DNA of 64,000 bases, taken from positions 62,001 through 126,000 of the forward strand of contig NZ_BONX01000001.1 of NCBI RefSeq assembly GCF_016862935.1, written 5' to 3'. Source of the DNA: Plantactinospora mayteni (lineage in GTDB: Bacteria > Actinomycetota > Actinomycetes > Mycobacteriales > Micromonosporaceae). A program made the translations under genes and the position numbers. Shown here in pieces: positions 4,239 to 58,820 of this stretch (its first letter is position 1; the number at the start of each line of letters is the position of its first letter). The notes under the pieces are model-generated. The model was given only the letters and a program-made list of their open reading frames with translations, searched no databases and was not told where the DNA came from.

Positions 4239-4242
4239 CTAT

Positions 4243-6060: not shown

Positions 6061-6064
6061 ACAG

Positions 6065-6156: not shown

Positions 6157-6162
6157 GTCATG

Positions 6163-6225: not shown

Positions 6226-6230
6226 ACGCG

Positions 6231-6575: not shown

Positions 6576-6580
6576 GCGAG

Positions 6581-7000: not shown

Positions 7001-7003
7001 CCG

Positions 7004-42713: not shown

Positions 42714-44501
42714 TCAGGCGTACGCCTTGGCCTGTAGGTCGTAGAGCGCGGCGTACCGGCCGGCGCGGGCCAGCAACGAGGCGTGCGTACCCGACTCGAC
42801 CAGCCGCCCTGCCTCCAGCACGAGGATCAGGTCGGCACCGGCCACCGTGGAGAACCGGTGCGACACGACGACGGTGATGGCTCCGGTGCCGCCGCGAATG
42901 GCGCGGGCGCGCGTCATGTACGCCTCGAAGATCGCCCGCTCGCTCGGCGCGTCCAGGGAGGCGGTCGGCTCGTCGAGCACGAAGAGCAGCGGCTGGGCCC
43001 GCATGCACGCCCGGGCCAGCGCCACCTTCTGCCACTGCCCCTCGGACAGCTCGACGCCGCCGAACTGCGTGGACAGCATCGTGTCCGTCCCCTGCGGTAG
43101 GCGGTCGACGAACTCTTCGGCGCCGGCCGTCCGGATCGCCGCCCGGATCCGTTCGGCGGAATCCATTCCGGCGGGGTCGCCGAGCCCCACTCCTTCGGCG
43201 ACGGTGGTCCGGTACCGGCCGAAGTCCTGGAACGCCGCGCTCATCGCGGCCCGCCAGGCGGCGGTGTCGAGGTCGGCGAGGTCCGTGCCGTCCACCCGGA
43301 CGGCGCCGCTGTCCGGTCGGTAGAGCTTCGCCAGCAGCTTGACGAGCGTGGACTTGCCGGAGCCGTACTCGCCGACCACGGCGACGATCGCGCCGGCCGG
43401 CAGGCGCGCGCTGAGCCGGTCCACCGCGAGACGGTCGGTGCCCGGGTAGGTGAAGCTGACGTCGTCGAGGACGATGCCGTCGGTCAGCCTGGCCGGCGGG
43501 GCGAGGCCGGGGCCGCCACGGGCCGCCGTCCCGGCGTGGTATTCGCGCAGCCACCGGTACGGGGCGAGGACCAGGGCTGCGCCACCCGCGTCGATCGAGC
43601 GTTCGACCGCCTGCTCCACCGCGAACCGCAGCTGCGCGCCGACGGTGATCGCGAGGACGAGGTCGCCGCCGGCCGCCGGTGAGCCCGCCGTCTGGCGTAC
43701 CAGCAGGACCAGGCCGCCGATGAAACCGAGCGCGAAGATGCTCCAGCCGAGCGCCGACCAGAGCGACGCGACGAGCCTCGCCCGCACGACGGTGGTCGCG
43801 GCGCTCTCCCACGCCTGCCGCTGGCGCCGGAGCAGCCGGTCGGCGGCGCCGGCCACCCGCAGTTCCTTGCCCGCCCCCGGGTCGATGGCCAGCGCCAGCA
43901 GGTGACGCTCGAGCCGCCGGTCCTCGGCCGCCGCCGCCTCGGCGTCGCGCATGCGCCGGCCCCCGTGCCACTCCAGCAGCAGCGGGACCACGGCGACGAC
44001 CAGCAGGCCGAGCAGCAGCGGGGAGACGGTGGCCAGGACGGCGAGGGCCGCGCCGAGACGAACGACGAACACGAACGCCTCGATCGCCGCCCAGCCCGAG
44101 TCGACCACCCGCCACACCTCGGCGCGCACCACACCGATCCGGTCCAGGTAGTCGCTGCGTTCCAGGTGCTCGATGGTGTCGACGCCCATCGTCGCCCGCA
44201 TCACCTCCGGCTGCACCTCGGTCAGGGTGACCCGGCCCACCACGTGGGTGCGCAGTTCGAAACCGATCTGACCGACGACCAGATCGATCGTGTACGCGGC
44301 AGCCGCACCGGCCGCGCCCACGACGATGGCGCTGAAGTCCGCCCGGATCGAGCCGTCGACCACGGCGCGCAGGCCGAGGCCGACGACTGCGAAGGAGACG
44401 CTGTTGAGGGCGATGCAGCACAGCGAGAGCAGGGTCAGTCCCGGGCTGTGGCGCCAGCACCGGAGGAACGACTCCCGGCGCACGGCCAGATCGGCGATCA
44501 C
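42714..44501 (-). CDS. ABC exporter half-transporter, subunit 2
   Basis: 595 residues from a GTG overlapping the upstream stop. An N-terminal exporter-type membrane domain has six helices (TLLSLCCIALNSVSFAVVGLG onward). The ATPase domain has Walker A GEYGSGKST, Q-loop AFQDFGRY, Walker B LLFVLDEPTASLD and switch VVVSHRFSTV. The signature motif reads LSEGQWQK instead of LSGGQ, so this half may have a degenerate ATP site. It probably forms a heterodimer with the next gene's product to export the cluster product. Confidence 0.9.
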   Translation of the reverse strand: MIADLAVRRESFLRCWRHSPGLTLLSLCCIALNSVSFAVVGLGLRAVVDGSIRADFSAIVVGAAGAAAAYTIDLVVGQIGFELRTHVVGRVTLTEVQPEVMRATMGVDTIEHLERSDYLDRIGVVRAEVWRVVDSGWAAIEAFVFVVRLGAALAVLATVSPLLLGLLVVAVVPLLLEWHGGRRMRDAEAAAAEDRRLERHLLALAIDPGAGKELRVAGAADRLLRRQRQAWESAATTVVRARLVASLWSALGWSIFALGFIGGLVLLVRQTAGSPAAGGDLVLAITVGAQLRFAVEQAVERSIDAGGAALVLAPYRWLREYHAGTAARGGPGLAPPARLTDGIVLDDVSFTYPGTDRLAVDRLSARLPAGAIVAVVGEYGSGKSTLVKLLAKLYRPDSGAVRVDGTDLADLDTAAWRAAMSAAFQDFGRYRTTVAEGVGLGDPAGMDSAERIRAAIRTAGAEEFVDRLPQGTDTMLSTQFGGVELSEGQWQKVALARACMRAQPLLFVLDEPTASLDAPSERAIFEAYMTRARAIRGGTGAITVVVSHRFSTVAGADLILVLEAGRLVESGTHASLLARAGRYAALYDLQAKAYA

Positions 44502-46366
44502 CGGCTCTCCCCGTCGAGCGTTGAACCCTCCAGGCGGTCGTCGTACCCCTGGACGAACCGGTCTGCCTGGATCTTGAACAGCCGGGCGTAGCGGCCACCC
44601 GCGGCCGTCAGCTCCTCGTGGGTACCGGACTCGGCGATCACACCGTCTGCCAGCAGCACGATGCGGTCGGCGCCGCGCACCGTGGAGAGCCGGTGGGAGA
44701 TCAGGACCGTGGTAGCGCCGTTTCTGGTCCCGGACAACCGGTCGAACACCTCCGACTCGGTGCGGACGTCCAGGTGCGCGGTGGGCTCGTCCAGGACGAG
44801 CACGCGAGCCCCGGTGTGCACCGCGTAGCAGGCCCGGGCCAGGATCACGTGCTGCCACTGACCACCGGACAGGTCCACCCCGCCGGAACGGGTGCGCGAC
44901 AGCGGGGTGTCGGCGCCACGGGGCAGCCGCTCCAGGACCGGCGCCAGCCCCGACCTGGTGACGGCCTTCTCCAGCGCCACCGCGTCCACCGGGCCGGGAG
45001 CACCGAACGTGACGTTGTCGACCGCCGCGAGCTGGTACCTGACGAAGTCCTGGAACACCACGGTCAGCCGGCGTCGCCACGCGGCCGGGCCGCCGGCCAC
45101 CGGGTCGTGGATGTCCACGCCGTCGGCGGTGACCCGGCCGGCGACCGGCCGGTACAGGCCGGCGAGTAGCTTGACCAGCGTCGACTTGCCGGCACCGTTG
45201 AGACCGACCACGGCCAGCCACTCGCCGGGCCGGATCTCCAGGTCGAGGCCGTCGAGCACCGGCCGGTCGGCGCCGGGATACCGGAAGACCACCTTCTCGA
45301 AGCGGAGCACCGGCGGGGCGGTGGCGCCGGTGCTCGCCGCGACCGGCGGGCCGAGCACGGCGGGTGCCGGCCGCGAGACAGCCCCCAGGCGTTCGGCGAG
45401 TTCCTCGTACGCCTCGACGACCGGCGCCGCCCCGGCGACATTGACCACGTCGTCCAGGCTGATCAGTGTCGCGTACACGCTCCACGCCGCGGTGAGGATC
45501 GCCACCTCGGTGGCGACCGTCGCGGCACCGTTGACGACGCCCCTGGCCACAATCACGTAGACCGCGGCCAGGGGCACGAACATCAGCACGGTGGGCAGCC
45601 ACTGCCCCAGCCCGGCACGCCGGTCGTCCGCCCACACCGGCCCGAGATGCGTGCGCACGTGCCGCTGCTGGCGGCCGACCAGCCAGTCGGCGAAGCCGAA
45701 GACCCGCACCTCCTTGCCCTCCGCCGGTGCGGTCGACACCTCCGTCCAGTAGCCGGCGGATCGGTGGTCCGGCAGTCCGGCCGACCAGATCCGGAAGTGC
45801 CGCCGCCACCGCCTGATCGCCAGCAGTCGTACGGCGACCGCGGGGACGCCGAGCACCAGTACCAGCCACCAGGCGAACGACGCGAGCACCGCCGCCGTCG
45901 CGGCCAGCCCGAGGTACTGCACGACGGTCCGCAGTTGACCGAGCACGCCGTCGGAGATGCTCTTCTCCAGCCACACCGACGGCTCCCGGGTGACCTGTCT
46001 CAGCAGGTCCTGGGTCCGGGGCTGCTCCAGCGTGTCGATCGTGCCGGCGCCCATGGCCAGCCGCGCGACGCGGAGCCGGTGCGCCCCGTCGATGCGGATC
46101 TTCGTCAGGGTGGCCAGCGGTCGCAGCAGCGCCTTCAGCGCCACGTTCACCAGCAGGGCCGCGCCGAGCAGCGCGAGCGGTGTCGCCAGGTGGGACAGCG
46201 CCCCGGGGTCCTCCCCCTCCCGGCGCATGGCGGAGACCACCGCCGCGGTGGCGACAGCCGTCGCCGCGGGCAGCAACGCCTGGACGAGCAGGGTGGTGGC
46301 GAGCGCCGCGACCACCGGCAACCCCGCGTCGGCGAGACGGCGCAACAGAAGAAGGCGAACACGCAC
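44498..46366 (-). CDS. ABC exporter half-transporter, subunit 1
   Basis: 622 residues. The GTG at 46366 is chosen because GGGGGAG lies six bases upstream; a longer open frame to 46564 would overlap the hydrolase gene. Membrane domain with six helices (LPVVAALATTLLVQALLPAAT). ATPase domain with Walker A GLNGAGKST, canonical signature LSGGQWQH, Walker B VLVLDEPTAHLD and switch LISHRLSTV. With its partner it forms a type IV-like heterodimeric exporter. Self-protection by efflux is the likely role. Confidence 0.9.
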   Translation of the reverse strand: MRVRLLLLRRLADAGLPVVAALATTLLVQALLPAATAVATAAVVSAMRREGEDPGALSHLATPLALLGAALLVNVALKALLRPLATLTKIRIDGAHRLRVARLAMGAGTIDTLEQPRTQDLLRQVTREPSVWLEKSISDGVLGQLRTVVQYLGLAATAAVLASFAWWLVLVLGVPAVAVRLLAIRRWRRHFRIWSAGLPDHRSAGYWTEVSTAPAEGKEVRVFGFADWLVGRQQRHVRTHLGPVWADDRRAGLGQWLPTVLMFVPLAAVYVIVARGVVNGAATVATEVAILTAAWSVYATLISLDDVVNVAGAAPVVEAYEELAERLGAVSRPAPAVLGPPVAASTGATAPPVLRFEKVVFRYPGADRPVLDGLDLEIRPGEWLAVVGLNGAGKSTLVKLLAGLYRPVAGRVTADGVDIHDPVAGGPAAWRRRLTVVFQDFVRYQLAAVDNVTFGAPGPVDAVALEKAVTRSGLAPVLERLPRGADTPLSRTRSGGVDLSGGQWQHVILARACYAVHTGARVLVLDEPTAHLDVRTESEVFDRLSGTRNGATTVLISHRLSTVRGADRIVLLADGVIAESGTHEELTAAGGRYARLFKIQADRFVQGYDDRLEGSTLDGESR

Positions 46367-46424: not shown

Positions 46425-46952
46425 TCAGGTCGGGCTGCCCACCTCCACCGCCCGGGACGACCCGGCGATCTGCCGGACCGCCGCCACGACGGCGGACGGA
46501 TCGCGCGCCACCGTCGCGTAGTCCAGTCGCCGGACCGACGTGATGGCGGAAAGGCCCTGGACAAGATGGCTGTATTCGGCGCGGTCGTCCACCACGAGAA
46601 TGACGGGCCGACCCAGGGCCGCGGCCCATCCTAACTCGACACACGTGCCGTCCGTCCGATATGGAGAGCCGTCGGCACCTGCGGGAAGCACCGCCACGAA
46701 GACGGTGCATTTCAAGATCCAATTGTAGTCGCGCGTGGCAATTTCGTGCGACTTACCCTCTACATTTTCCTCACCGAAACCCTCCGTGAGGTGCGCCGAC
46801 AGCACTTGCAGGCCGTCCGCCTCGATCTTGGTAATGATCGAGCGGACGTCCGTCTCAAGTGTCCGGTCAAAGTTTCCGGCGGCGTCGATAGCGTACTGGA
46901 TCGGGCCGCCCACCATGACCGCGATGTGGTCGACAGGCGAGGACGTAGACAT
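46425..46952 (-). CDS. MilB/BlsM-like CMP N-glycosidase (nucleoside 2-deoxyribosyltransferase fold)
   Basis: 175 residues. Family pattern: GGPIQYAID at the N-terminus, ADGLQVLSAHLTEGFG, ATRDYNWILKCTVFVAVLP (Asp75), then catalytic Glu106 in CVELGWAAALGRPV, and a closing YSHLVQGL. The MilB/BlsM branch splits (hydroxymethyl)CMP to free the pyrimidine base for cytosylglucuronic acid synthesis; this protein is diverged from my memory of those sequences. The presence of a cytosylglucuronate synthase on the other side of the divergent promoter supports the assignment. Less GC-rich than its neighbours. Confidence 0.7.
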   Translation of the reverse strand: MSTSSPVDHIAVMVGGPIQYAIDAAGNFDRTLETDVRSIITKIEADGLQVLSAHLTEGFGEENVEGKSHEIATRDYNWILKCTVFVAVLPAGADGSPYRTDGTCVELGWAAALGRPVILVVDDRAEYSHLVQGLSAITSVRRLDYATVARDPSAVVAAVRQIAGSSRAVEVGSPT

Positions 46953-47048
46953 CGATCAGTCTCCTCGGTATCGTTCGAGTGGCTTAGTTGAGAATACCGA
47001 CAAACATAGTCCAGTCAAAGCAACCGCACGCAGAAACGGGGAGCGACG
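46953..47048. promoter_or_regulatory. Divergent promoter region of the nucleoside cluster
   Basis: A 96-bp gap separates the - strand run (hydrolase, exporters, GH3, kinase, transferases) from the + strand run (transferase, oxidoreductase, radical SAM, synthase). It is visibly AT-richer than its surroundings (TTAGTTGAGAATACCGACAAACATAG). Both transcription units probably start here. No clear operator palindrome was found. Confidence 0.5.
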
Positions 47049-48524
47049 TTGCATTGGACCTTCGACCAGCATCAATGTGCTTTCAACAACGAAGGTTTAC
47101 GGTTCGCCCCGCGGACCGGTGATGGGTCCACGGAGGACCCATGGCGTGACGCCGACGGCCGGCCACCAGAGCGGGACCCGCGACGCGAGCGGGATGCCGT
47201 CGCCGACTACCTCGCACGACAGCCGGACAGTTACCGGGCGACCGTGGAATCGCTGGCCAGATCGCTCGGCCCGCTGGACGTCGCCTGCCGCGCTGTCGTG
47301 CTCGTGCCCTGCCGTTCCGAGGCCGCTCAGCTGGACACCCTGCTCGGCTGGTACGCCGACCAGCGTGACCTGTCCGGCGCACCCCTGCGACCGGAACAGT
47401 TGGAGGTCCAGCTGCTGGTCAACCGCTTCGCGGACGAACCCGACGACGGCGCGGCCGCGATCGCCGACCGCTACCGGGGCGGGCGGCTCAGGGTCACGGT
47501 GGCCGAATATTTCCATCCTCCGGACGAGCACGCGCCACTCACCATGGCCAGGAAGCTCTCGGCAGACGTGGCGCTCTGGCGGGCGCTGCAACGCCCCAGC
47601 TACCCGGCACCGCTCTACCTGCTCTCCGAGGATGCCGACGTCGCCTGGATCGATCCGCGCTACGTCGCCCTGGCCGTCTCCACACTGGACACACGCCCGG
47701 GGCTCGACGCGGCGCGCGGGCAACAGGACCGCTGCCCCTGGGTCATGGCACGCCATCCGCTGCTGGTACTCATGCGTCGGTCGTGGAACTTCGCCGAAGC
47801 CGTCCTGGCGCGCCGGTCACTGCGGCCCGACCGCAACCCGCAGCACGACTTCACCTGGAACAGGCTGACCACCAGCGGCTGGAACTGTGCGTTCACCGCC
47901 GAGGTATACGCGCTGGTCGGTGGCTACAACCGGGACCGACCGTTCGAAGAGGACATGGACATCGGCGAGAAGATTTCCTGTCTGCGCGCCTTCGAGCGGG
48001 ACGGCACACTCGTCCCGCAGGTCAACACCGTCGGCTGGCTTCCCACCCGGGCCGAGGGTTCCCCGCGACGTTGGCTGTACTGGGCGGCCACCGGTGTCGA
48101 GCCCTACGAGGACACCAATCAGCACGAGAACTTCTTCCGGCGCGACCACGAACGGGTCGTCAAGGACTGTAGCCTCACCGAGCTGGAGCAGCTCGCGCGC
48201 CCGTACACGGTGCTGGACCCCGACCGCGTCACCGCGGCGCTCCAGCGCGACCTGGACTTCCTTCCCGGCCGGTGCGGTGGTCGTGACGACGGTCGCGCCG
48301 TCTACCAGCGGGTCCTGACCCTGCTCGGATTCGCACCCGGCGAGGCGGTGGTCAGCGACGGCACGCTGCGGATCAGATCGCTCGACGCGGTCGGCGCGCG
48401 GCTGGAACGCTTCGGCCGGTTCGCGAAGCTGATGGCCGGCCCCTACCCGGCGACCCTGCCGGCCGGCCGGGCCGCCTTCACCTGGCGTCTCGGCGCCGTC
48501 CCGGTGCGGGCCGATGTCTCCTGA
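47049..48524 (+). CDS. Glycosyltransferase (GT-A, family 2-like)
   Basis: 491 residues from a TTG with GGGGAG upstream. A GT-A core lies at about 75-330: ACRAVVLVPCRSEAAQLDTLL, then LLSEDADVAWIDP with an acidic metal site, and the acceptor motif FEEDMDIGEKISC. A C-terminal helical extension follows. The N-terminal 60 residues are poorly ordered. It overlaps the oxidoreductase gene by 11 bp and opens the + strand unit, so it probably adds a sugar to the product or an intermediate. Donor unknown. Confidence 0.8.
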   Translation: MHWTFDQHQCAFNNEGLRFAPRTGDGSTEDPWRDADGRPPERDPRRERDAVADYLARQPDSYRATVESLARSLGPLDVACRAVVLVPCRSEAAQLDTLLGWYADQRDLSGAPLRPEQLEVQLLVNRFADEPDDGAAAIADRYRGGRLRVTVAEYFHPPDEHAPLTMARKLSADVALWRALQRPSYPAPLYLLSEDADVAWIDPRYVALAVSTLDTRPGLDAARGQQDRCPWVMARHPLLVLMRRSWNFAEAVLARRSLRPDRNPQHDFTWNRLTTSGWNCAFTAEVYALVGGYNRDRPFEEDMDIGEKISCLRAFERDGTLVPQVNTVGWLPTRAEGSPRRWLYWAATGVEPYEDTNQHENFFRRDHERVVKDCSLTELEQLARPYTVLDPDRVTAALQRDLDFLPGRCGGRDDGRAVYQRVLTLLGFAPGEAVVSDGTLRIRSLDAVGARLERFGRFAKLMAGPYPATLPAGRAAFTWRLGAVPVRADVS

Positions 48525-49578
48525 TCCCGCGGCGAGCCACCTGCCGCCGGCACGCGTGCGAGTCGCCCTGGTGGGCTGCGGGGCGGTGGTGCAGCACGGA
48601 CACGTGCCGGCGTACGCCGCGTCGCCCGCCCTCGACGTCGTGGCCGTCTGCGACCCCGCGGCGGAGCGGCGGTCCACGGTCGGACGGCTGCTCGGCGTGC
48701 CGCCACACCGGTGGCTCGACCGCGCGTCCGACCTGACCGTTCTGGCGGACAGACCGCAGGTGGTGGTGGTCGCGACGCCCACCGCGACCCACGACGCGGT
48801 CATCGACGACCTACTCGGCAACGGCTTCCACGTGGTGTCCGAGAAACCCATCAGCCCGACGGTCGACGGCTGCCTCGCGCTCGTCCGGCGGGCGACCGGC
48901 CACGGGCGGCGACTGGGTGTGCTGCACAACTACCAGTTCGCCACGATGTGGCAGGCGACCGCGGCCGAGCTGGCGGCCGGCGCGGTGGGCGACCCGCTCG
49001 CGTTCGACGTCCGGCTGACCGATCCGGGCCCGCTGCCGGGGCTCATGCCGCAACAGCCGATGTGGCGCACCTCCCGGTCACTGGCGGGCGGCGGCTGCCT
49101 GCTCGACGCGGGCTACCACTTCGTCTATCTGGCCGAGGAGCTGATGGCGAGCCCGGTCACCGAGGTGACCGCCGACGCGATCGAGACCGTCACCCCCGGC
49201 TGGAGCGTCGAGGACCGGGCACGCGTCCGGCTGCGGCACGCCGGCGGCGCCGTCACCAGCCTGTGCGTCGACTGGACCGTACGCACGCGGCAGCGCCCGT
49301 ACCTGCGTGTCACCGGGTCGCGGGGCCACATCGAGGTCGACGAGGACGCCGCCATGGTCACCGTCCATCGGCACGGGGACGCGGAGCGGGTCATCGACTG
49401 CACGGACGATCCGCACGGTTTCCGGACGGCACTGCCCGGCGCGGTTCTGGGCACCGTCGGCGACGCCGACCACCGGGGTTCAGCCGAGCGGGGCAGGCGC
49501 GTCGTCTCGATCGTCGAGGCGTGCTACGCGTCCGCGGCCGAAGGGAAAACCGTCCATCTCGACAGACCGGAGCTGTGA
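48514..49578 (+). CDS. Gfo/Idh/MocA-family sugar oxidoreductase
   Basis: 354 residues. The N-terminal NAD-binding fold shows VALVGCGAVVQHGHVPAY, VVVVATPTATH and the EKP motif (HVVSEKPIS) whose Lys is catalytic. The C-terminal sheet domain has LLDAGYHFVYL. Such enzymes oxidise one hydroxyl of a (nucleotide) sugar to a ketone, the substrate for a DegT aminotransferase. Its stop overlaps the radical SAM start (TGATG). A partner in a Gfo/Idh - HAD - DegT amino-sugar set is plausible. Confidence 0.88.
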   Translation: MSPDPAASHLPPARVRVALVGCGAVVQHGHVPAYAASPALDVVAVCDPAAERRSTVGRLLGVPPHRWLDRASDLTVLADRPQVVVVATPTATHDAVIDDLLGNGFHVVSEKPISPTVDGCLALVRRATGHGRRLGVLHNYQFATMWQATAAELAAGAVGDPLAFDVRLTDPGPLPGLMPQQPMWRTSRSLAGGGCLLDAGYHFVYLAEELMASPVTEVTADAIETVTPGWSVEDRARVRLRHAGGAVTSLCVDWTVRTRQRPYLRVTGSRGHIEVDEDAAMVTVHRHGDAERVIDCTDDPHGFRTALPGAVLGTVGDADHRGSAERGRRVVSIVEACYASAAEGKTVHLDRPEL

Positions 49579-50558
49579 TGACGACCCGGGACCGGTACCT
49601 GTTCATCAGGATTCTCGAGGCGTGCAACGCCGACTGCTTCATGTGCGGGTTCGCACTCTCCCGCGACGAGTACCGCTTCAGCGTCGAGGAGTTCAGCGCG
49701 CTGCTGCCGGCGGCGTACGCGGCCGGCGTACGCTACGTGCGGTTCAGCGGCGGCGAGCCGCTGATGCACCGCGACGTCGTCGAGCTGGTCGGCGTCGGCA
49801 CCCGGCACGGCATGAAGATGTCCCTGATCACGAACGGGCTCATGCTGCCGAAGATGATCGACCCTCTGGCGGAGGCCGGGCTGGCCCACGTGATCGTCAG
49901 CATCGACGGCGGCTCCGCCGAGACCCACGACACGTACCGGCGCCTGCCCCGGTCGTTCCATAATGGACTCGACGGGCTCCGCGAGGCACGCCGACGCACC
50001 CTGCTGACCCGCGTCAACACGGTCGTCGGGCCGCACAACTACACCGAGATGCCGCAGTTGCAGGCCGCCCTGACCGACGCGGGCGTCCAGCAGTGGGAGC
50101 TGTCCGCGCTCAAACTGGAAAGGCCGATCGTCTACCCGGACCCCGGGCACGTGGAGGCGGTGTGCGAACCCCTCTACACCGCCGACCCGCACCACAGCCT
50201 CGTCCCCCTCGGCAAGCGCTTCTACGGGGACACGCCCCTCGAACGCGAGCTGTTCTTCACCCACTCGGTGACCCCGCGCGCCGGGCGGCCCCTGTGTCAT
50301 GTCGTCGACGACGTGATCTATCTCGACGGCAAACGTGGGCTCGGCTACGGCTGCTCCTGCATCGCCCACGCCGACGACGTGCCCGGCGTGCCGTTGCGGC
50401 AGGGCACGACCTGGCTGCTGGACACGCCGCGGTTTCGCACCCACGTCGATGTCTTCCGGGAGCAGGCGCCGCTTCGCTGCACCGGGTGCTCCACCACCGC
50501 CGCCGGCTACAGCGACGACGTCGCGCGGCTGGGCACCGTACCGGCCTGGCACCACTGA
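49578..50558 (+). CDS. Radical SAM enzyme, cytosylglucuronate decarboxylase type (BlsE/MilG-like)
   Basis: 326 residues. The cluster motif C16-x3-C20-x2-C23 (CNADCFMCGF) is followed by the SAM-binding GGE (FSGGEPLMHRD) and a TNG turn (SLITNGLML). Five more cysteines (about 240, 259, 261, 301, 304; ends CTGCSTTAAGYSD) suggest an auxiliary cluster or structural site. The overall pattern and the AHVIVSIDG and VGPHNY segments recall the family that decarboxylates cytosylglucuronic acid in blasticidin S biosynthesis. The start ATG overlaps the previous stop. The same operon supplies the cognate synthase. Confidence 0.8.
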   Translation: MTTRDRYLFIRILEACNADCFMCGFALSRDEYRFSVEEFSALLPAAYAAGVRYVRFSGGEPLMHRDVVELVGVGTRHGMKMSLITNGLMLPKMIDPLAEAGLAHVIVSIDGGSAETHDTYRRLPRSFHNGLDGLREARRRTLLTRVNTVVGPHNYTEMPQLQAALTDAGVQQWELSALKLERPIVYPDPGHVEAVCEPLYTADPHHSLVPLGKRFYGDTPLERELFFTHSVTPRAGRPLCHVVDDVIYLDGKRGLGYGCSCIAHADDVPGVPLRQGTTWLLDTPRFRTHVDVFREQAPLRCTGCSTTAAGYSDDVARLGTVPAWHH

Positions 50559-50604
50559 ACGCTGCTCCGGATGGCGGAACGCCACCACAACGGTAAGGGG
50601 AGCC

Positions 50605-51825
50605 GTGACGATCTCTCAGACTTCGACCACCAGCTCGTCGGCTCTGGCCATCCACGGCGGGGTGCCGGTTCGGCCCCGGCCCGTGTCCATGACCACCCAC
50701 CTCGGTCCGGCGGCCCGGCTGCGGATCGCCGGGGTGCTCGAACGGCACGAGCCACTCTCGGAGTACTACGGCGGTCCGTGGGCCCGGCGGTTCGAGGACG
50801 AGTTCGCCCGCTATCACGGTGCCGACAGGCATGCGGTCGCCGTCAACTCCGGCACGAGCGCGCTGCACGTGTCGCTGGCGGCGGCCGGAATCGGGCCCGG
50901 TGACGAGGTCATCGTCCCCGCGCTGGCCTTCGTCGCCGCGGCGACGGCGGTGGTGCAGCTCGGCGCGGTGCCCGTCATCTGCGACGCCGAGCCGCACAGC
51001 CTGACCATGGACGTACGGGCCGCGGAGGCGCTCGTCACCGACCGCACCCGGGCGATCCTCCCGGTCCACCTCTGGGGCCACCCGGCCGACCTCGCGTCGC
51101 TGCGGGCGCTCTGCGACGCGCGCGGCCTGGTGCTCGTCGAGGACGCCTGCCAGGCGCCAGGCGCACCCGTCGGCGCCGCCCGCACCGGGACCTTCGGCGA
51201 CTTCGCCGCCTACAGCTTCGCCAACCGCAAGCACATCCACTGTGGAGACGGCGGCATGGTCCTGTGCCGCACCGCCGAAGCGGCCCGGACCGTACGGTCG
51301 ATGGCGAACTTCGGCAAGGGTCCGGGCTGGGACGACTACCACACGCTCGGCTACAACTACCGGATGGTCGAGGTGTCGGCGCTGATCGGCCTCGAGGGTC
51401 TCGCCGACCTGGACGACGAGATAGCCCGCCGGCAGCACGCGGCATCGCTGTACCGGCAGGGGCTGCGGGACACGGACCTGGCACCGGTGCCCGCGCCGGC
51501 CTGGGGCGACAGCGTCTACTTCAAGATGCCGGTCCTACTGCCGGAGCGGCACGTGGCGCGCCGCCAGTTCGTCATCGACGCGATCCACGCCGAGAACGTC
51601 AGCAGCCGCATCCCGCACCGCCCGCTCTTCGCCGTGCCCTGGCTCGCCGAGTACCTGCGCGCCCGGGGCCGGTACCGTGGCCCCGAGGACTGCCGGGTGG
51701 CGGCCTCGGCACACGCCCGGCTGTTCGAGGTGGAGACCGGACCGCACCTGCCGGCCGAGGAGGCCGCCCGCTCGGTCGAAGCGGTGCGGAAGGTGTGGCG
51801 GCAACTCGACGGGCAGGCCCCGTGA
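50605..51825 (+). CDS. DegT/DnrJ/EryC1 PLP-dependent aminotransferase (BlsH-like position)
   Basis: 406 residues from the GTG at 50605, with AAGGGGAG upstream. PLP site: NSGTSALHVSL phosphate loop, Asp180 in VEDACQA and Schiff-base Lys209 in SFANRKHIHCGDGGM. The family transaminates keto sugars or, with partners, dehydrates them. In the blasticidin pathway a DegT enzyme acts right after the radical SAM step, which fits the order here. GTGA overlap joins it to the next gene. Confidence 0.85.
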   Translation: MTISQTSTTSSSALAIHGGVPVRPRPVSMTTHLGPAARLRIAGVLERHEPLSEYYGGPWARRFEDEFARYHGADRHAVAVNSGTSALHVSLAAAGIGPGDEVIVPALAFVAAATAVVQLGAVPVICDAEPHSLTMDVRAAEALVTDRTRAILPVHLWGHPADLASLRALCDARGLVLVEDACQAPGAPVGAARTGTFGDFAAYSFANRKHIHCGDGGMVLCRTAEAARTVRSMANFGKGPGWDDYHTLGYNYRMVEVSALIGLEGLADLDDEIARRQHAASLYRQGLRDTDLAPVPAPAWGDSVYFKMPVLLPERHVARRQFVIDAIHAENVSSRIPHRPLFAVPWLAEYLRARGRYRGPEDCRVAASAHARLFEVETGPHLPAEEAARSVEAVRKVWRQLDGQAP

Positions 51826-52940
51826 CCGGCCAGCAACCGGTGCTGCTGGCATCCGCCTGCGACTTCGGCTGGGGCAGCGTCGGCAAGCTGCGGCTGGTCC
51901 TGGACGAGCTGCCCGGAGTGCCGGTGGCGCTCTACCCCGCCGACGGTCGGCCGAACCCGGCCGCCGAGCTGCTCGCCGACCGGTACCGCTTCGTGTCCGC
52001 TCCGCCGGACCGGGCCAGCGTCGCCCTGGTGGTCAACGATCCGGTCGCGGCCGACGAGATCACCAGGATGGGCGTTCCGGTGGTGTATCTCGACAGCCTT
52101 CCCTACCTGTGGGCCACCCCGGAGGAGGTGCCCCGGCAGGTGGCGGTCTACTGCGCGCAGCACGGCCCGTACGGCGCACTGCCGGCCGGCAGTCCCCTGG
52201 CGGGCCGGTCCGACATCGAGTGGATCGAACCGATCGTGCCGAGGGCCCGCGGTCGCCGAGGCGGGGACGGGATCGTGGTGAGCGTCGGCGGCCTGCACAG
52301 CCACCTCGTCGGATCCGCGGCCGACGCGTACCTGCGGCTGGTGCTGCTGCCCATCGCGGAGCTGCTCGCCGACGGTGGCCGCCCGGTCGCGGCGGTGTGC
52401 GGAAACCTCCCCGACTGGGCGTGCCGCGACCTCGCCGCCCGGCTGCCCGGTCCGGTCCGGATCGGGGCGCAGACGCCGGCCGACTTCGAGGCGACACTGC
52501 GCGGTGCCGACCTGCTGATCACATCTTCCGGAAGCACGACGATCCTCCAGGCCGCCGCGCTGGAACTGCCGATGATCCTGCTGCCGCCGCAGAATCTCAG
52601 CCAGATCCTGAACGCGGAGATCTACGCGGCGGCGGCTCGCGAGGTCCTGTGGTGGCCGGCGTCGGTGCTCGACCCGGCAGAGGTCGCCCGGTTGCGGCCG
52701 GCGGGTGAGGACACCGTGCTCCGGTACATCTACGGCGCGATCAGCGACGCCGCCGACCGCCCCGAGGTCCGCGCGGCGGTCCGGGCCGCCCTGGCCACCG
52801 GCGTGGCGGGCCGCCCAGCCGTGGACGCCGTACCGGAGCGGGTCCTAGAGCCCGCCAGGATGGGCGGCGCGCGGCAGGTCGGCCGGCGGATCCGTCAGGC
52901 GATGTTCGCGCCCCTGCCCAGACCGGAACGACCGGCATGA
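51822..52940 (+). CDS. Cytosylglucuronate synthase-like glycosyltransferase (BlsD-type)
   Basis: 372 residues with a GT-B fold. N-terminal LLASACDFGWGSVGKLRLVLDELPG, a VALVVNDPVAAD strand and VVYLDSLPYLW are the segments I associate with (hydroxymethyl)cytosylglucuronate synthases. The C-terminal half has VSVGGLHSHL and the donor loop LLITSSGSTTILQAAALELPMILLPP. The reaction joins free cytosine to glucuronic acid from UDP-glucuronate. This is the strongest single marker for a cytosine nucleoside pathway in the window; overlap ATGA couples it to the phosphatase gene. Confidence 0.78.
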   Translation: MTGQQPVLLASACDFGWGSVGKLRLVLDELPGVPVALYPADGRPNPAAELLADRYRFVSAPPDRASVALVVNDPVAADEITRMGVPVVYLDSLPYLWATPEEVPRQVAVYCAQHGPYGALPAGSPLAGRSDIEWIEPIVPRARGRRGGDGIVVSVGGLHSHLVGSAADAYLRLVLLPIAELLADGGRPVAAVCGNLPDWACRDLAARLPGPVRIGAQTPADFEATLRGADLLITSSGSTTILQAAALELPMILLPPQNLSQILNAEIYAAAAREVLWWPASVLDPAEVARLRPAGEDTVLRYIYGAISDAADRPEVRAAVRAALATGVAGRPAVDAVPERVLEPARMGGARQVGRRIRQAMFAPLPRPERPA

Positions 52941-53608
52941 CAGACCTCGGCGGCGTCGCCGTCTTCCTGGACTTCGACGGGACGATCACCGTCCGGGACA
53001 CCTCCGAACACCTGCTCGAACGCCTGGCCGCCGGCGACTGGCGGTTGCCCGGCGACCGCTACCGCCGTGGCGAGCTGACCGGCCGGCAGTGCCTGGAAGA
53101 GGAGTGGGCCATGCTGCCGCACGACGCGGACCTGCTGCTGGCGACCGCGCGGGAGGTACCGCTCGACCCCGGCTTCGCCTCGCTCACGGCCGAACTGCGG
53201 GCGGCCGGGGCGACCGTAACCGTCGTCTCGGACGGGTACGGGATACGCGTCCACGAGGAGTGCGCGCCCCTCGGCCTCACCGCACTCACCGCGCGCGTCC
53301 GCGACGGCGAGCTGAGCTTCCCGCACAGCGCCGCGGACTGCCCGTGCGCCTCCTGCGGCACCTGCAAGGTGCTGCCGATCCTGCGGGCCAAGCGGCAGGG
53401 CCGCCCGACCGTCATGGTCGGAGACGGCACCTCCGACCGGCGGGCCGCCCTCGTCGCGGACCGCGTCCTGGCGAAGAACGGCCTGGCGGACTGGTGTGCC
53501 GACGAAGGGGTCGCGCACACGCCGTTCGACAACCTGACCGACGTCCGGCGGATCCTGCTGGCACCGACGCCCGTTCCGCCGGCGACCGAATCGAGGGACG
53601 GAAGCTGA
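52937..53608 (+). CDS. HAD-family phosphatase (MtnX/SerB-like)
   Basis: 223 residues. Motif I is FLDFDGTITVRDT (Asp12 nucleophile, Asp14), motif II VTVVSDG, a lysine in CKVLPILRAK, and motif IV MVGDGTSDR. A Cys-rich loop (CPCASCGTCK) resembles the zinc loop of MtnX-like enzymes. It should remove phosphate from a small sugar phosphate. Between a cytosylglucuronate synthase and a second DegT gene it may dephosphorylate an amino sugar. Confidence 0.87.
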   Translation: MTDLGGVAVFLDFDGTITVRDTSEHLLERLAAGDWRLPGDRYRRGELTGRQCLEEEWAMLPHDADLLLATAREVPLDPGFASLTAELRAAGATVTVVSDGYGIRVHEECAPLGLTALTARVRDGELSFPHSAADCPCASCGTCKVLPILRAKRQGRPTVMVGDGTSDRRAALVADRVLAKNGLADWCADEGVAHTPFDNLTDVRRILLAPTPVPPATESRDGS

Positions 53609-53609
53609 C

Positions 53610-54848
53610 ATGACTTCGGCGCAACGGATTGAGCTGGCCGTGGCGGGCGCGAGTGGCCGGAGATTCGGCGACCTGGCGACCCGCGCGCCGTGGCCGGTGC
53701 ACGACGAGTTGGAGCGCGCCGCACTCGACCGGGTGCTCAGCTCGGGATCGTGGTCACGGCTGGGCGACGCCGACTGGACAGGCGGCGAGTGCGGGCTCTT
53801 CGAGCGGGAGTTCGCCGGCTACCTCGACGCCGGCAACGCGCTGGCGGTCGCGAACGGCACCCTCGCCATCGAGATCGGCCTGCTGGCCCTCCGGGTACGC
53901 CCCGGCGACGAGGTCATCGTGCAGGCCGGCACGTTCTTCGGATCGGTCACCCCCATCCTGCGGGTGGGCGCCCGGCCGGTCTTCGTCGACCTGGACGAGT
54001 CGACCTGCACCGTGGATCCCGCCGCCGTGGAGGCAGCCGTCGGCCCCCGTACCGTGGCGGTCGTCGCCGTCCACCTCGCCGGCCTGCCGGCCGACCTGGA
54101 CCGCCTCGCCGAGGTGTGCCGGCGGCACTCCCTCGCCCTGCTGGAAGACTGCGCCCAGGCAGTCGGTACCCGCTGGCGGGGGCGGGCGGTCGGCACCGTG
54201 GGAGACGTCGGCGCCTTCAGCCTCCAGCAGGGCAAGGTCCTACAGTCCGGCGAGGGCGGGGTCCTCGTCTGCCGGGACCGGGCCGTCGCCGACCGGGCGT
54301 TCGCCCTGCACCAGGGCTTCACGATGCCCGGCTCGCCGACGCCGGCCAAGCACGAGCCGGCCGCGAACATGCGGCTCTCCTCCTGGCCGGCCGCGATCGC
54401 CAGGTGCCAGCTGACCCGGGTCGAGGAGCAGATCGCACACCGGCTGCGCAACGCGCGCGCCGTGGCCGCACTGCTGCGGCCGGACGATCCGGTGGAACTC
54501 GTCGACGCACACCCGGGCATGAGCAGGTGGAGCCCGTTCAGCATCCCGCTGCGGATCGTGCCGGAACGTGCCGGCGAACTCTCCCAGGAGTTGCTCGTCG
54601 CGGCGCTGCGGGCCGAAGGCGTACCCGCGTTCGAGGGCCACCTCGAGCCGCTGTACGACCGGCCGATCTTCCGGGACAACGACTTCGACGTCCGGGACAC
54701 CGGCTGCCCGGTCACCGATCGGGTCAGCCGGCGACACGTGGCCGTGCTGCAGCAGTTCCTGCTCGGTCCACCGGACTGGATGCCCCGGCTCGTGGAACTG
54801 ATCCGCGACGTGCACGCCGCCGCACCGCAGCTCCGGCACGCCGGATGA
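53610..54848 (+). CDS. DegT/DnrJ/EryC1 aminotransferase, second copy
   Basis: 412 residues. Phosphate loop ANGTLAIEIGL, Asp180 (LLEDCAQA) and Schiff-base Lys209 in FSLQQGKVLQSGEGG. It is closer to the AHBA-synthase and inosose/kanosamine-type group (W-x-G-GE near the N-terminus) than to the first copy. It would aminate a keto sugar, perhaps that made by one of the two Gfo/Idh enzymes. Its stop overlaps the GH3 start (ATGA). Confidence 0.86.
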   Translation: MTSAQRIELAVAGASGRRFGDLATRAPWPVHDELERAALDRVLSSGSWSRLGDADWTGGECGLFEREFAGYLDAGNALAVANGTLAIEIGLLALRVRPGDEVIVQAGTFFGSVTPILRVGARPVFVDLDESTCTVDPAAVEAAVGPRTVAVVAVHLAGLPADLDRLAEVCRRHSLALLEDCAQAVGTRWRGRAVGTVGDVGAFSLQQGKVLQSGEGGVLVCRDRAVADRAFALHQGFTMPGSPTPAKHEPAANMRLSSWPAAIARCQLTRVEEQIAHRLRNARAVAALLRPDDPVELVDAHPGMSRWSPFSIPLRIVPERAGELSQELLVAALRAEGVPAFEGHLEPLYDRPIFRDNDFDVRDTGCPVTDRVSRRHVAVLQQFLLGPPDWMPRLVELIRDVHAAAPQLRHAG

Positions 54849-57718
54849 CCGGGCCGGCGTTCCGCGACCCGGACCTGCCCCTGGAGACCCGGGTGGCCGA
54901 TCTGCTGGGGCGGCTCACCCTGCCGGAGAAGGCCGGCCTGCTGCACCAGTACCAGGGGGCGGTGCCGCGGCTCGGGCTCGACCGGTACCCGACCGGCACC
55001 GAGATCCTGCACGGCGTGGCCTGGCGTGGCGAGGCAACGGCCTTCCCGCAGGCGCTCGGGCTGGCCAGCTCGTGGGATCCGGAGCTGCTGCGGGCCGTCG
55101 GCGCCGCCGTCGGCGACGAGGTGCGCGGACTTCGTCGCAAGCAGCCGGAGCGGGTCAGCCTCAACGTCTGGGGCCCGGTGGTCAACCCGCTCCGCGATCC
55201 GCGCTGGGGCCGCAACGAGGAGGGCTACTCCGAGGATCCGTGGCTGACCGGGACGCTGGCCACGGCGTACACCGCCGGCCTCAGCGGGGATCACCCCCGT
55301 TTCCTGCGGACCGCACCGACGCTCAAGCACTTCCTCGGCTACAACAACGAGGACGGGCGCGGCGAGACCTCCGCCGGTCTCGCGCCCCGGGTCCGGTACG
55401 AGTACGAGTACCCCGCCTTCCGCGCCCCGATCGAGGCCGACGTGGTGGTCGGCCTGATGTGCTCGTACAACCGGATCAACGGACGGCCGGCGCACGTGAG
55501 TCCACTCGTCAACGCGGAGGTACGCCGCTGGAGCAAGCGGGAGCTGCTGGTCGTCAGCGACGCGGAAGCGGTCTCCGGCATGACGAAGTGGCAGCACTAC
55601 TTCGACGACCACCTCGTCGGTCTCGCGACCGCGCTGCGCGGCGGCATCGACTGCTTCACCGAGGACGACCGGGACTCCGAGCCGACCGTCGCCCGCGTGA
55701 CGGAGGCCCTGTCCCGAGGGCTCATCAGCGAGTCCGATGTGGATACGGCGGTACGTCGTTCGCTGGCCGTACGGTTCCGGCTCGGCGAGTTCGACCCGCC
55801 CGAGGGCAACCCGTACGCCGCCATCACCCCGGACGTCGTCAACTGTGCGGCGCACCAGCGCCTGGCTCGGCGGGCGGCGCGCGGCGCGATGGTACTGCTG
55901 GCCAACGACGGGACGCTCCCGCTGCCGGATCCACCCGGCCGGGTCGCGGTCGTCGGCCCCCTGGCGGACGTGGTCTACGACGACTGGTTCAGCGGCACCA
56001 AGCCGTACGCGGTGACGGCGTACGGCGGCCTGGCCGGCCGGCTGGGCGCGGACGCGGTGGAGTTCCGGCAGGGCGTCGACCGGATCGTCCTGGGCGGGCC
56101 GTACGGCCCGGTAGCCGCCACCGACGACCCGGCGGGCGGGCCGGTGCGCGTCGACGGGGCGGCGTCCGAGGCAGCGACCTGGATCGACGTCTTCGACTGG
56201 GGCTACGGCGTCGTCGCGCTGCGGACCGCGGCGAACAACAAATACATCAGCGTCGACGAGGACCGAACCCTCGTCAACACCATGGACGTACCGTGGGGCT
56301 GGTTTCTGCGTGAGACCTTCCGGCTCCTCGACCACGGGCCCGGTCGGGTGGTGATCCAGCACGTCCACTCCGGACGGTACGTGGCCACCGACGACACCGG
56401 CGTCCTGCGGGCCAACCGGACGGACGCCCGCGACGCGTCGGTTTTCGACCTGCACGCCGTCGTGGACGGCGCGCGGGACGCGGCCGAGGCCGCGGGCGGC
56501 GCCGACGTGGCCGTGGTCGTGGTGGGCAACCACCCGTTGATCAACGGGCGAGAGTCGCAGGATCGGCCGGGTCTCGCGCTGCCACCTGCCCAGGAGGCTC
56601 TGGTGCGGGCGGTGTACGCCGCCAACCCCCGCACCGTCCTCGTCGTGACCAGCAGCTACCCGTACGCGATGGAGTGGGTCGGCGACCACACGGCCGCCGT
56701 GCTCTGGTCGGCACACTGCGGCCAGGAGTACGGCAACGCGCTGACGGACGTCCTGCTCGGCGGGACGCCGGACGGCGCCGCCGTCGACGTGACCGGGCGG
56801 CTGACGCAGACCTGGTATCGCGCCGAAGAAGACCTGCCCGACATCCTCGACTACGACATCATCGCCCGCGACGCCACGTACCGGTACCACCGGGGCAGTC
56901 CGCTCTACCCGTTCGGGTTCGGCCTCAGCTACACCACCTTCGCCTACACCGACCTGCGCCTGTCGGCCGGCGCGATCGAGGCGACCGGAGACGTGCAGGT
57001 CACCGCGCGGGTGGCGAACACCGGGGACCGGCCCGGCACCGAGGTGGTCCAGCTCTACGTCCGGCAGGAGGGGTCACAAGCCAAGCGACCGCTGCGGCAG
57101 CTGCACGGCTTCGCGCGGGTCACCCTCGCACCCGGCGAGAGTCAGGACGTCGGCTTCACGCTGCACGGGGCGGACCTGGCGTACTGGGACGTGCGCCGCG
57201 CCGAGCCCGTCGTCGAGTCGGGCACCTACCGCGTGCTGGTCGGTCGGTCCAGCGCCGCGACCGAGCTGAGCGCGGTTTTCACCGTACGGGGACGGGAGAT
57301 CGGGCCCCGGGACCCGCTGCGCGCACCGTTCGAGGCGGCCAACCACGACGAGTACCGGGACACGGTCCTGACGCACGAGGAGCCGGACGGCGCCGACGCC
57401 GTCAGCGGGACCGCGCCCGGCGCGTGGACCTGTTTCCGGGCGGTGGACTTCGGAGTAGGCGCCGTCGGCACGGTGACCGCCCGCCTCAGCGCCCTGCGCC
57501 CGGAGGCGGCCGGCGGCCATCTGACGCTCCGGTTGGACGACCCGTCGACCGGCCCGGTCATCGGCCGGTTGCCGGTTCCCGGCCCGGGCGGCCGGGGCGA
57601 CTGGCACACCGTCTCCGCCACGCTGACCGGCGCGGACGGTGTCCGCACGCTGTATCTGGTCTTCGACGCGGCAGGCAGCGCGGTGAGCCGGCTGACCTTC
57701 GGCACCGGTGCGGGGTGA
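54845..57718 (+). CDS. GH3 glycoside hydrolase with inserted trefoil-like domain, third copy
   Basis: 957 residues from the overlapping ATG, no signal peptide. GH3 motifs are intact: GTEILHG, RDPRWGRNEEGYSEDP, KHFLGYN (161-167) and nucleophile Asp239 (VVSDAEAV). The insert (WIDVFDWGYGVVALRT, GWFLRETFRLLD, GRYVATDDTGVL) occupies about residues 405-530. Domain 2 resumes at VAVVVVGNHPLINGRE; an FnIII-like domain and a CBM6-like C-terminus follow. An active cytoplasmic exo-glycosidase is likely. Convergent with the GHMP kinase gene 26 bp later. Confidence 0.87.
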   Translation: MTGPAFRDPDLPLETRVADLLGRLTLPEKAGLLHQYQGAVPRLGLDRYPTGTEILHGVAWRGEATAFPQALGLASSWDPELLRAVGAAVGDEVRGLRRKQPERVSLNVWGPVVNPLRDPRWGRNEEGYSEDPWLTGTLATAYTAGLSGDHPRFLRTAPTLKHFLGYNNEDGRGETSAGLAPRVRYEYEYPAFRAPIEADVVVGLMCSYNRINGRPAHVSPLVNAEVRRWSKRELLVVSDAEAVSGMTKWQHYFDDHLVGLATALRGGIDCFTEDDRDSEPTVARVTEALSRGLISESDVDTAVRRSLAVRFRLGEFDPPEGNPYAAITPDVVNCAAHQRLARRAARGAMVLLANDGTLPLPDPPGRVAVVGPLADVVYDDWFSGTKPYAVTAYGGLAGRLGADAVEFRQGVDRIVLGGPYGPVAATDDPAGGPVRVDGAASEAATWIDVFDWGYGVVALRTAANNKYISVDEDRTLVNTMDVPWGWFLRETFRLLDHGPGRVVIQHVHSGRYVATDDTGVLRANRTDARDASVFDLHAVVDGARDAAEAAGGADVAVVVVGNHPLINGRESQDRPGLALPPAQEALVRAVYAANPRTVLVVTSSYPYAMEWVGDHTAAVLWSAHCGQEYGNALTDVLLGGTPDGAAVDVTGRLTQTWYRAEEDLPDILDYDIIARDATYRYHRGSPLYPFGFGLSYTTFAYTDLRLSAGAIEATGDVQVTARVANTGDRPGTEVVQLYVRQEGSQAKRPLRQLHGFARVTLAPGESQDVGFTLHGADLAYWDVRRAEPVVESGTYRVLVGRSSAATELSAVFTVRGREIGPRDPLRAPFEAANHDEYRDTVLTHEEPDGADAVSGTAPGAWTCFRAVDFGVGAVGTVTARLSALRPEAAGGHLTLRLDDPSTGPVIGRLPVPGPGGRGDWHTVSATLTGADGVRTLYLVFDAAGSAVSRLTFGTGAG

Positions 57719-57744
57719 GCGTGGGCAGCGGCGCCCGCACGGTG

Positions 57745-58782
57745 TCAGGCCGGCAGGGCGGTGGCCTTCGATCCCGCTTCGTCCAGCGCGAAGCGCAGCT
57801 CCGTGACGCCTCGCCGCGCCATCGCCGCGCGCACCCCGGCCGTTGCGGCGTCCGGGACGCTGACCAGGAGGAATCCGCCGCCACCGCCGCCGAGCAACTT
57901 GCCGCCGTCGGCGCCGGCGGCGCGGGCGGACTCGTACAGCTCGTCGATCGCCGGTGTGCTGACGCTGGGGCTGAGGCGCCGCTTGAGCTCCCAGTGGCGG
58001 TGCAGCATCGGCCCGATCTCGCCGACCCGATCGGCCCGGACCGCCCGTGCCATCTCGTGGGCCAGGTCGTGGATCTCGCACAGCGCCCCGACCGTCGACT
58101 CGTCGCCACGGACTGTGCGCAGATGCTGGGCGGCGAGGACCGTGCCGGCGTCCCGGCTGACCCCGGTGTAGAACAGCAGCAGATTGTCGCTCAGATAACG
58201 GCGCAGGACCGGGCCGGCCGGCAGGTCGTCCACCTCGACGGCGAGATCTCGGTCGATGTGCAGCGCCCGGATGCCGCCGTACGACGCCATGTAGTGGTCG
58301 TGCTTGCCGACCGGCCGGCCCAGGTCGGCCATCTCCACCGCGCTGGCCTCCTCGGCCAACTCCCGGGGGTCGACCTTCCCGGGCGGTCGCAGCGCGTGCA
58401 GCAGCGCGACGGTGAAGGCCGCGGAGCCGCCGAGCCCGGTGCCACTCGGCGCGTCGCTGAACGACGCCAGCTGGGCCGCCGGCACCGGGCCGCTGCGCCG
58501 GAAGGCGGCCCGGGCGAAGTCGTTCGTCAGCGCGGTGACGTGGTCGACCCGCTCGTCCCGCTCCCACCGCGCGTACACCCGGCCGTCGAAACTGCGCGGA
58601 AACACCGTCACCGCCACGTACCGGTTGATGGCCAGGCTGACCACGAGCCCGCCCTGCCGCCGCGCGTAGCTCGGCAGATCTGTCCCCCCGCCGGCGAGCG
58701 ACACCCGCAGCGGAGCGCGGGCGAGCGACACCCGCAGCGGAGCGCGGGCGAGCCTGATCGACTCCTCCTGCTGACGACGCAT
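57745..58782 (-). CDS. GHMP kinase, heptose-7-phosphate kinase-like (HddA/LmbP type)
   Basis: 345 residues from the ATG at 58782; the frame is open to 58863. Motif 1 RAPLRVSLAGGGTDLPSY, motif 2 PSGTGLGGSAAFTVALLHAL and motif 3 GGKLLGGGGGGFLL are those of D-glycero-D-manno-heptose 7-phosphate kinases, which phosphorylate C1. The motif-1 segment is duplicated exactly (residues 13-30). Divergent from the GmhA-like gene; with the next two genes it forms a higher-sugar module as in the lincomycin octose pathway (LmbP, LmbN, LmbK). Confidence 0.86.
   Translation of the reverse strand: MRRQQEESIRLARAPLRVSLARAPLRVSLAGGGTDLPSYARRQGGLVVSLAINRYVAVTVFPRSFDGRVYARWERDERVDHVTALTNDFARAAFRRSGPVPAAQLASFSDAPSGTGLGGSAAFTVALLHALRPPGKVDPRELAEEASAVEMADLGRPVGKHDHYMASYGGIRALHIDRDLAVEVDDLPAGPVLRRYLSDNLLLFYTGVSRDAGTVLAAQHLRTVRGDESTVGALCEIHDLAHEMARAVRADRVGEIGPMLHRHWELKRRLSPSVSTPAIDELYESARAAGADGGKLLGGGGGGFLLVSVPDAATAGVRAAMARRGVTELRFALDEAGSKATALPA
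58694..58747. repeat. Exact 27-bp tandem duplication inside the GHMP kinase gene
   Basis: Units at 58694-58720 and 58721-58747 are identical and in frame, repeating nine residues (RAPLRVSLA) of conserved motif 1. Six further bases of a third copy follow (GCGAGC). Perfect identity indicates a recent event. Confidence 0.95.
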
Positions 58783-58820
58783 AGCGGCCACCCTAGCGCC
58801 GCCCACAGAAGGGATCTGCG

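Follow-up and report, generated by a model that had tools for sequence, protein, structure and literature searches.

The cytosine nucleosides that can be named as derivatives of cytosylglucuronic acid (CGA), namely blasticidin S, mildiomycin and gougerotin, carry amino-acid side chains on an aminated sugar. We analysed a 64,000-nucleotide stretch of the Plantactinospora mayteni genome (contig NZ_BONX01000001.1, positions 62,001 to 126,000), in which four marker genes of the CGA pathway lie together at 46425-52940, and compared the gene cluster around them with these systems. The whole stretch is called the window here, and coordinates refer to it. We find that the cluster probably makes a CGA-class cytosine nucleoside in which sugars, and not a peptide, decorate the core. 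The cluster is larger than an earlier note made from the sequence (the original prediction) described, and its tailoring logic is unlike that of blasticidin-type clusters.

Our reference for the blasticidin type was a locus of Streptomyces morookaense (L033), which we take to be the blasticidin S cluster. It shares with the window a BlsE (70% identical) and a CGA synthase (34%), as well as enzymes of the DegT aminotransferase and MilB/BlsM-type glycosidase kinds. The window differs from it in lacking six companion genes, in having a DegT protein of another clade, and in carrying extra genes: 47049, a Gfo/Idh dehydrogenase, an HAD phosphatase, a second DegT protein and heptose-type genes. In the gougerotin cluster, gouA, gouF and gouH presumably encode enzymes of the Gfo/Idh, CGA synthase and DegT types, and we know of no BlsE there. 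The accessible part of PMC12835213 ascribes the 4-amino-CGA core of gougerotin to these three genes; to that extent the predicted core is alike, and the window was set beside gougerotin by this core and not by the peptidyl genes. MilB, MilC, MilD and MilG of mildiomycin are described in the accessible part of PMC11784345, and as far as that part goes the early enzymes are of the same kinds as in the window (nucleotide hydrolase, CGA synthase, DegT and BlsE/MilG). Scans of the window proteins found no acyl-carrier, dihydrodipicolinate-synthase or aminoacyltransferase family, the mil genes themselves not being searched for by sequence. Among the open-access papers listed by our searches, none described a cluster joining heptose to a nucleoside antibiotic, or kanosamine to a cytosine nucleoside, which leaves absence from print unproven.

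Marker genes of the CGA pathway

The original prediction placed a MilB/BlsM-like N-glycosidase, a BlsE-type radical S-adenosylmethionine (SAM) enzyme, a DegT aminotransferase and a CGA synthase-like glycosyltransferase of the GT-B type around one divergent promoter. All four open reading frames are present at the places and on the strands given, and all four quoted motifs were found in the translations: the radical SAM protein has CNADCFMC and CTGCSTTAAGYSD, the GT-B protein VVYLDSLPYLW and the glycosidase CVELGWA. The radical SAM frame runs from 49575, and the start given earlier, 49578, is the next codon, an ATG. The start of 50605-51825 (+ strand) is a possible one within a longer open frame, giving 406 amino acids against 403 in the called homologue from another genome of the same family (G010); 51822-52940 (+ strand) likewise sits in a longer open frame. 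The putative promoter would lie in the 96-bp gap from 46952 to 47049. From 47049 to 57718 the genes form a compact plus-strand run in which adjacent genes either overlap, by 4 to 11 bp, or are separated by 1 or 46 bp. E-values for the marker families were 1.2e-166 (TIGR04466), 1.7e-60 (TIGR04467), 2.7e-90 (PF01041) and 2.6e-11 (PF05014), so that, as judged from sequence, the four matches are far beyond chance. The best families of the radical SAM and GT-B proteins were BlsE and CGA synthase; best matches outside these families, which the original prediction had named as refuting it, were not seen.

The product of 49575-50558 (+ strand) is a BlsE radical SAM enzyme with CGA as its expected substrate. 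It matched TIGR04466 at 554 bits, against a cut-off of 400, and the solved enzyme in the PDB (7vob/7voc) at 516 bits, which bears out the BlsE-type assignment. The CxxxCxMC motif, the auxiliary cysteines and GGEP were all found, and cysteines 17, 21, 24, 241, 260, 302 and 305 are kept in 35 of 35 aligned rows, the window included. The protein is 63-76% identical to 31 of its 37 best matches, the remaining six being lower or fragments. Of 180 near-invariant columns, 14 differ between it and 30 other BlsE proteins, and three of these 14 fall within residues 124-127. We considered residues 124-127 as a clade-specific mark and rejected them, since other loci vary there as well. BlsE was reported in 2013 to decarboxylate CGA to cytosylarabinopyranose (accessible part of PMC3715490). 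The name decarboxylase in the original prediction agrees with this paper. A revision of 2022 reportedly recasts BlsE as a dehydratase that carries out 1,2-diol dehydration of CGA to 4'-keto-3'-deoxy-CGA.

The GT-B protein (51822-52940) matched TIGR04467 at 205 bits, by far the top of the three families that it matched, and fell below the curated cut-off of 300. Thus the family named by the original prediction stood as the best one, at a score short of the curated level. The family motifs FGWGS, DSLP, YCAQ and LPPQN are kept in a 24-row alignment. An AlphaFold (AF2) model built from that alignment had a predicted local distance difference test (pLDDT) score of 87.5, and Foldseek matched it best to MurG (E 4.4e-9) and then to antibiotic GT-B enzymes, with TM-scores of about 0.36-0.54 among the matches listed; the modelled fold is that of a GT-B protein. 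We conclude from its sequence that 51822-52940 encodes a diverged CGA synthase.

The glycosidase gene (46425-46952, minus strand; 175 amino acids) encodes a MilB/BlsM-like nucleoside or nucleotide N-glycosidase expected to release cytosine. Its family likeness was upheld by PF05014 (44 bits) and by the solved relatives BlsM (5vto, E 2.2e-13) and MilB (4jem, E 3.2e-12); the NCBIfam scan gave no family, and the protein belongs to a diverged subclade, in which it groups with a locus of a Catenulispora metagenome-assembled genome (MAG; L057). The glutamate of GTxVELGWA, which follows the GTxVExGWA pattern of MilB/BlsM-type enzymes and which we take to be the catalytic residue, is retained. The DegT protein (50605-51825; PF01041), which would probably aminate C4', was confirmed as such, and it keeps the pyridoxal phosphate lysine as read from its sequence. 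It falls outside a 28-row clade of blasticidin-type loci, which we infer to be BlsH, and groups with the homologues from G010 and from a Lysobacterales MAG (L059; support 95/97). Overall, the comparison supported the CGA-nucleoside pathway, with a synthase below its curated cut-off, a diverged glycosidase and a DegT protein outside the blasticidin-type clade.

Relatives of the locus and their rarity

Each of the six companion genes occurs in 23 to 27 of 28 full-length blasticidin-type loci, L033 included, a set that omits loci of 15 kb or less, L026, L066, L057, L059, L061 and L094. With thresholds of E 1e-8 and 40% coverage, all six were absent from the window, from the two G010 stretches (L026 and L066), from L059 and from L057. 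For five of the six L033 proteins we have Pfam results: one belongs to the radical SAM proteins and weakly matched lysine aminomutase, one has an L-amino-acid-ligase C-terminal domain, one had a weak, below-cut-off methyltransferase match and two had no family. The sixth we read as a major facilitator superfamily transporter. The statement in the original prediction that the accompanying genes match no usual cluster therefore holds for the loci compared. Since the locus pairs an apparently blasticidin-like core with sugar genes and has none of the blasticidin-type side-chain genes searched for, it probably makes a cytosine nucleoside of a new kind.

The closest relative is the locus in G010, which has homologues of the gene at 38885 and of the seven genes at 47049-54848 at 46-76% identity (BlsE 76%, DegT 63% and synthase 60% by protein comparison) and a MilB-like open reading frame of 211 amino acids. 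This co-conservation, like the gene identities and the absence of the six companions, is observed directly. Gene order and strands differ from those of the window. The G010 cluster also differs in having a MilB-like protein of another subclade, no good GmhA match, a second 47049-type copy and an ABC-F-like protein. A scan of named genomes gave 37 BlsE loci. We compared 35 of these (L029-L063) and the G010 stretch L026, leaving out L064 and L065, which are short with 32% matches; homologues of 47049, 48514 and 52937 were found at one of the 36 loci, that of G010. Of 101 genomes searched, two had a BlsE above the cut-off, the source genome and G010; six other members of the genus had none. At E 1e-15, 3 of 394 genomes of the class, our own included, had a match to the CGA-synthase family, as did 18 of 392 genomes in the genus of a further genome (G687).

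A more distant likeness was found in the Lysobacterales MAG, where a BlsE-DegT-synthase cassette (L059:9986-13351) is 47%, 55% and 44% identical to that of the window. It is followed by genes for a GT9 heptosyltransferase-family protein and a SurE-like protein. No more than about 13 kb from BlsE, the same genome has genes for an HldE-type kinase and nucleotidyltransferase and for GmhB-like and GmhA-like proteins, with a heptose stretch at L076:15588-16894; a GmhA search of the genome gave one good match, the one near the cassette, and another at 24 bits. This locus differs from the window in using an HldE (ADP-heptose) route and a GT9 protein in place of HddA, and its 21 kb held no homologue of the 47049, 48514 or 52937 type. 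A profile of the variant synthase matched 1 of 299 genomes of the order, the MAG itself. The synthase tree placed the window, G010 and L059 together (100/98). In the BlsE tree the window and G010 were joined (99/91). BlsE does not itself show the three as a group because L059, on a long branch, is not placed with the other two; the tree tool flagged the letter make-up of L059 for both BlsE and synthase. BlsE rows L061 and L062 and synthase row L062 had been dropped as fragments before the trees were built.

The Catenulispora locus (L057) has a BlsE relative, a MilB-like enzyme that groups with that of the window and none of the six companion genes, and is possibly another variant.

Sugar-type genes and the proposed pathway

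The plus-strand run carries four further genes shared with G010. We read 47049-48524 as a GT-A/GT2-like glycosyltransferase gene; its product is 60% and 66% identical to the two G010 copies, and its TTG start is backed by alignment to one of them. One of four aligned members of this type matched Glyco_tranf_2_3 (E 0.058), and a PDB profile search with two members found nothing. A profile of the type (E 1e-30) matched 3 of 354 genomes of the family: our own, G010 and, distantly, G030, in which the match adjoins a gene that we read as miaA. The gene at 48514-49578 (+ strand) encodes a Gfo/Idh/MocA dehydrogenase (PF01408, PF22725 and PF02894; 46% identical to the G010 homologue), that at 52937-53608 (+ strand) an HAD-IB phosphatase (PF12710, with TIGR01488 over cut-off; 63%) and that at 53610-54848 (+ strand) a second DegT aminotransferase (PF01041; 71%) whose closest solved relative is 3-amino-5-hydroxybenzoate (AHBA) synthase (1b9h, 195 bits).

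Homologues of GmhA, the kinase and GmhB are present together, by family matches, at 57745-60039. The HddA-like heptose-7-phosphate kinase gene (GHMP family; 57745-58863, minus strand, start at 58704 or 58863) matched NF049969 at 121 bits against a cut-off of 600 and 3k85 in the PDB at E 9.9e-36. The GmhA-like sedoheptulose-7-phosphate isomerase (58929-59471, plus strand; SIS_2) scored 109 bits for TIGR00441 against 209, and the GmhB-like heptose bisphosphate phosphatase (59464-60039, plus strand) 148 bits for NF006506 against 178, with TIGR01656 over cut-off. They are followed on the plus strand by genes for a FAD-dependent oxidoreductase (60036-61085; DAO family, PF01266) and a second Gfo/Idh oxidoreductase (61082-61996; PF01408). 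Among 46 fetched loci, GmhA and GmhB matches were found in L076 alone, and the window has both. That set includes the window flanks L027 and L028, overlapping stretches and a probable duplicate (L058/L100), and most of its loci span 10 kb on each side, so that heptose genes further out would be missed; the GmhA gene of the L059 genome itself lies outside its 10-kb flank.

The CGA core chemistry predicted for these genes is well supported by homology, and its decoration with sugars is what we infer. The 46425 N-glycosidase would free cytosine. The 51822 GT-B protein would then couple cytosine to UDP-glucuronate to give CGA, judging from its family and from the roles of MilB and MilC in the accessible part of PMC11784345. 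The DegT protein 50605 would aminate C4' of the BlsE product. By the revised account, that product would be 4'-keto-3'-deoxy-CGA, formed from CGA with loss of the 3'-hydroxyl as water. Kanosamine-type pathways contain sets of enzymes that oxidise, aminate and dephosphorylate a hexose, and by analogy the Gfo/Idh protein 48514, the second DegT protein 53610 and the HAD protein 52937 may do the same to a second sugar, which the 47049 glycosyltransferase would attach. Less surely, the GmhA-, HddA- and GmhB-like enzymes, together with the FAD and Gfo/Idh proteins (57745-61996), might supply a C7 sugar or a derivative of one. Protection and export may be provided by the upstream kinase of the aminoglycoside phosphotransferase (APH) type and an ABC transporter pair.

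Several observations weigh against this sugar-tailoring scheme. In the core, beside the synthase score given above, the glycosidase lacks the main-clade AHRREAWG motif, having AHLTEGFG, and the MilB-like gene of G010 belongs to a subclade other than that of the window; these two points leave orthology of the glycosidase step unproven. The kanosamine-type logic of 48514, 53610 and 52937 rests on analogy. The 47049 protein has no Pfam family at a meaningful E-value, with weak matches alone at E up to 5, and its single-sequence AF2 model was unusable (mean pLDDT 37). The heptose genes of the window score below the curated equivalog cut-offs, the source genome has two stronger GmhA-like matches elsewhere, and a PF00483 nucleotidyltransferase is absent from the contig of the window, with nine matches on other contigs. 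In the G010 genome no GmhA was found except for a 21.8-bit match. As for the Lysobacterales genome, an integrase-type gene lies between HldE and GmhB/GmhA, L059 was flagged as long-branched in three trees (BlsE, synthase and DegT), and the BlsE tree leaves it apart from the window and G010. A cluster of this type can do without heptose, since in G010 the core and the second DegT gene occur with no good GmhA in the genome. The link of heptose to the nucleoside is plausible from the gene content, and unproven since G010 lacks it.

One alternative has a fair claim to attention, though we lean away from it: that the region holds two neighbouring units, a CGA aminonucleoside cassette at 46425-54848 and a separate cell-surface or glycan locus at 54845-61996. 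G010 has the first part alone in the stretches read and no good GmhA in its genome, the activating nucleotidyltransferase is missing from the contig, the HddA-like kinase gene is on the opposite strand, and three GH3 genes in the window suggest a glycan-related region. Against a division, the genes at 53610 and 54845 overlap by 4 bp, the distant CGA cassette of L059 is also near heptose genes and a heptosyltransferase-family gene, and the HddA-like gene was matched in one of seven genomes of the genus, the source genome itself.

It is unlikely that the product is a conventional peptidyl nucleoside, like blasticidin, mildiomycin or gougerotin, with its peptide genes elsewhere in the genome. The core enzymes do match in kind, and the gou genes presumably encode enzymes of the types seen in the window. 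Against this, a search covering the window and the G010 stretches found none of the six blasticidin-type companion genes there, and both carry conserved sugar-type genes in their place. We consider it rather improbable that BlsE oxidises C4' only, keeping the 3'-hydroxyl, with a product resembling the hikizimycin-like long-chain amino sugar nucleosides. In its favour, such a sugar would fit the presence of a Gfo/Idh protein, two DegT proteins and heptose genes, and BlsE departs at the near-invariant columns noted above; its high identity to most of its best matches, its intact cluster cysteines and the variation of residues 124-127 in other loci argue against a changed reaction. Hikizimycin itself, a cytosine nucleoside with a long-chain amino sugar, was set aside as the product because that sugar retains the 3'-hydroxyl that BlsE would remove. 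That there is no nucleoside pathway here, the genes being for surface-glycan sugar enzymes that resemble CGA enzymes by chance, would fit the many sugar genes nearby and the several scores below curated cut-offs, and is very improbable given a BlsE score 154 bits above its cut-off and a MilB-type glycosidase and CGA-synthase relative beside BlsE in both the window and G010.

Returning to the sugar-tailored CGA cluster, we tentatively suggest that it represents a non-peptidyl branch of CGA nucleosides, present in actinobacteria and a gammaproteobacterium, in which sugars would be attached to 4'-amino-CGA: a second amino sugar in the case of the window and G010, and a C7 sugar in that of the window and the Lysobacterales genome. 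If so, the branch would offer new ribosome-directed scaffolds and a type of glycosyltransferase with a testable acceptor. It would also provide a natural comparison for BlsE chemistry, and the Lysobacterales cassette would carry the pathway beyond actinobacteria.

Upstream genes and other features of the window

The gene at 38885-39835 (minus strand) encodes an APH/homoserine-kinase-like kinase (PF01636; homoserine kinase 2ppq, E 1.4e-12) that may serve in self-protection, and it has a 55% identical homologue in the G010 stretch L066. A leucine-rich-repeat protein gene (37821-38888) lies between it and a Glyco_tranf_2_4 gene. The ABC transporter pair at 42714-46345 (42714-44501 and 44498-46345, minus strand; PF00005 in both) could act in export; against the two ABC proteins of L066 it aligns locally at only 29-37% identity.

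The G010 cluster has, in addition, a protein with two ABC domains that we read as ABC-F-like (L066:4669-6309). It is 55-59% identical to proteins in 13 of 43 other loci searched, mostly CGA loci; the 13 amount to about 12 distinct ones, since L058 and L100 are probably one record. The occurrence of such a protein in CGA loci fits a ribosome target. We found no match to it in the window. The best ABC-F match in the source genome (72%) lies on another contig, near what we read as ribosomal-protein genes, and for that reason was not counted as a member of the cluster.

Three GH3 glycosidases with CBM6-like ends are encoded in the window, at 32410-35235 (with a CBM6 match below cut-off), 39851-42691 and 54845-57718. 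The last of these (+ strand; PF00933, PF01915, PF14310 and PF03422) is of uncertain membership in the cluster, and no homologue of it was found in the G010 stretches L026 and L066. At 35244-36868, a gene for an FkbM-type methyltransferase lies beside one whose product matched the Npun_R2821/R2822 family below cut-off. Genes of a contractile injection system are found in a row at 3474-8953, encoding CIS_tube, a Phage_base_V hub, PAAR, gp25 and Baseplate_J proteins.

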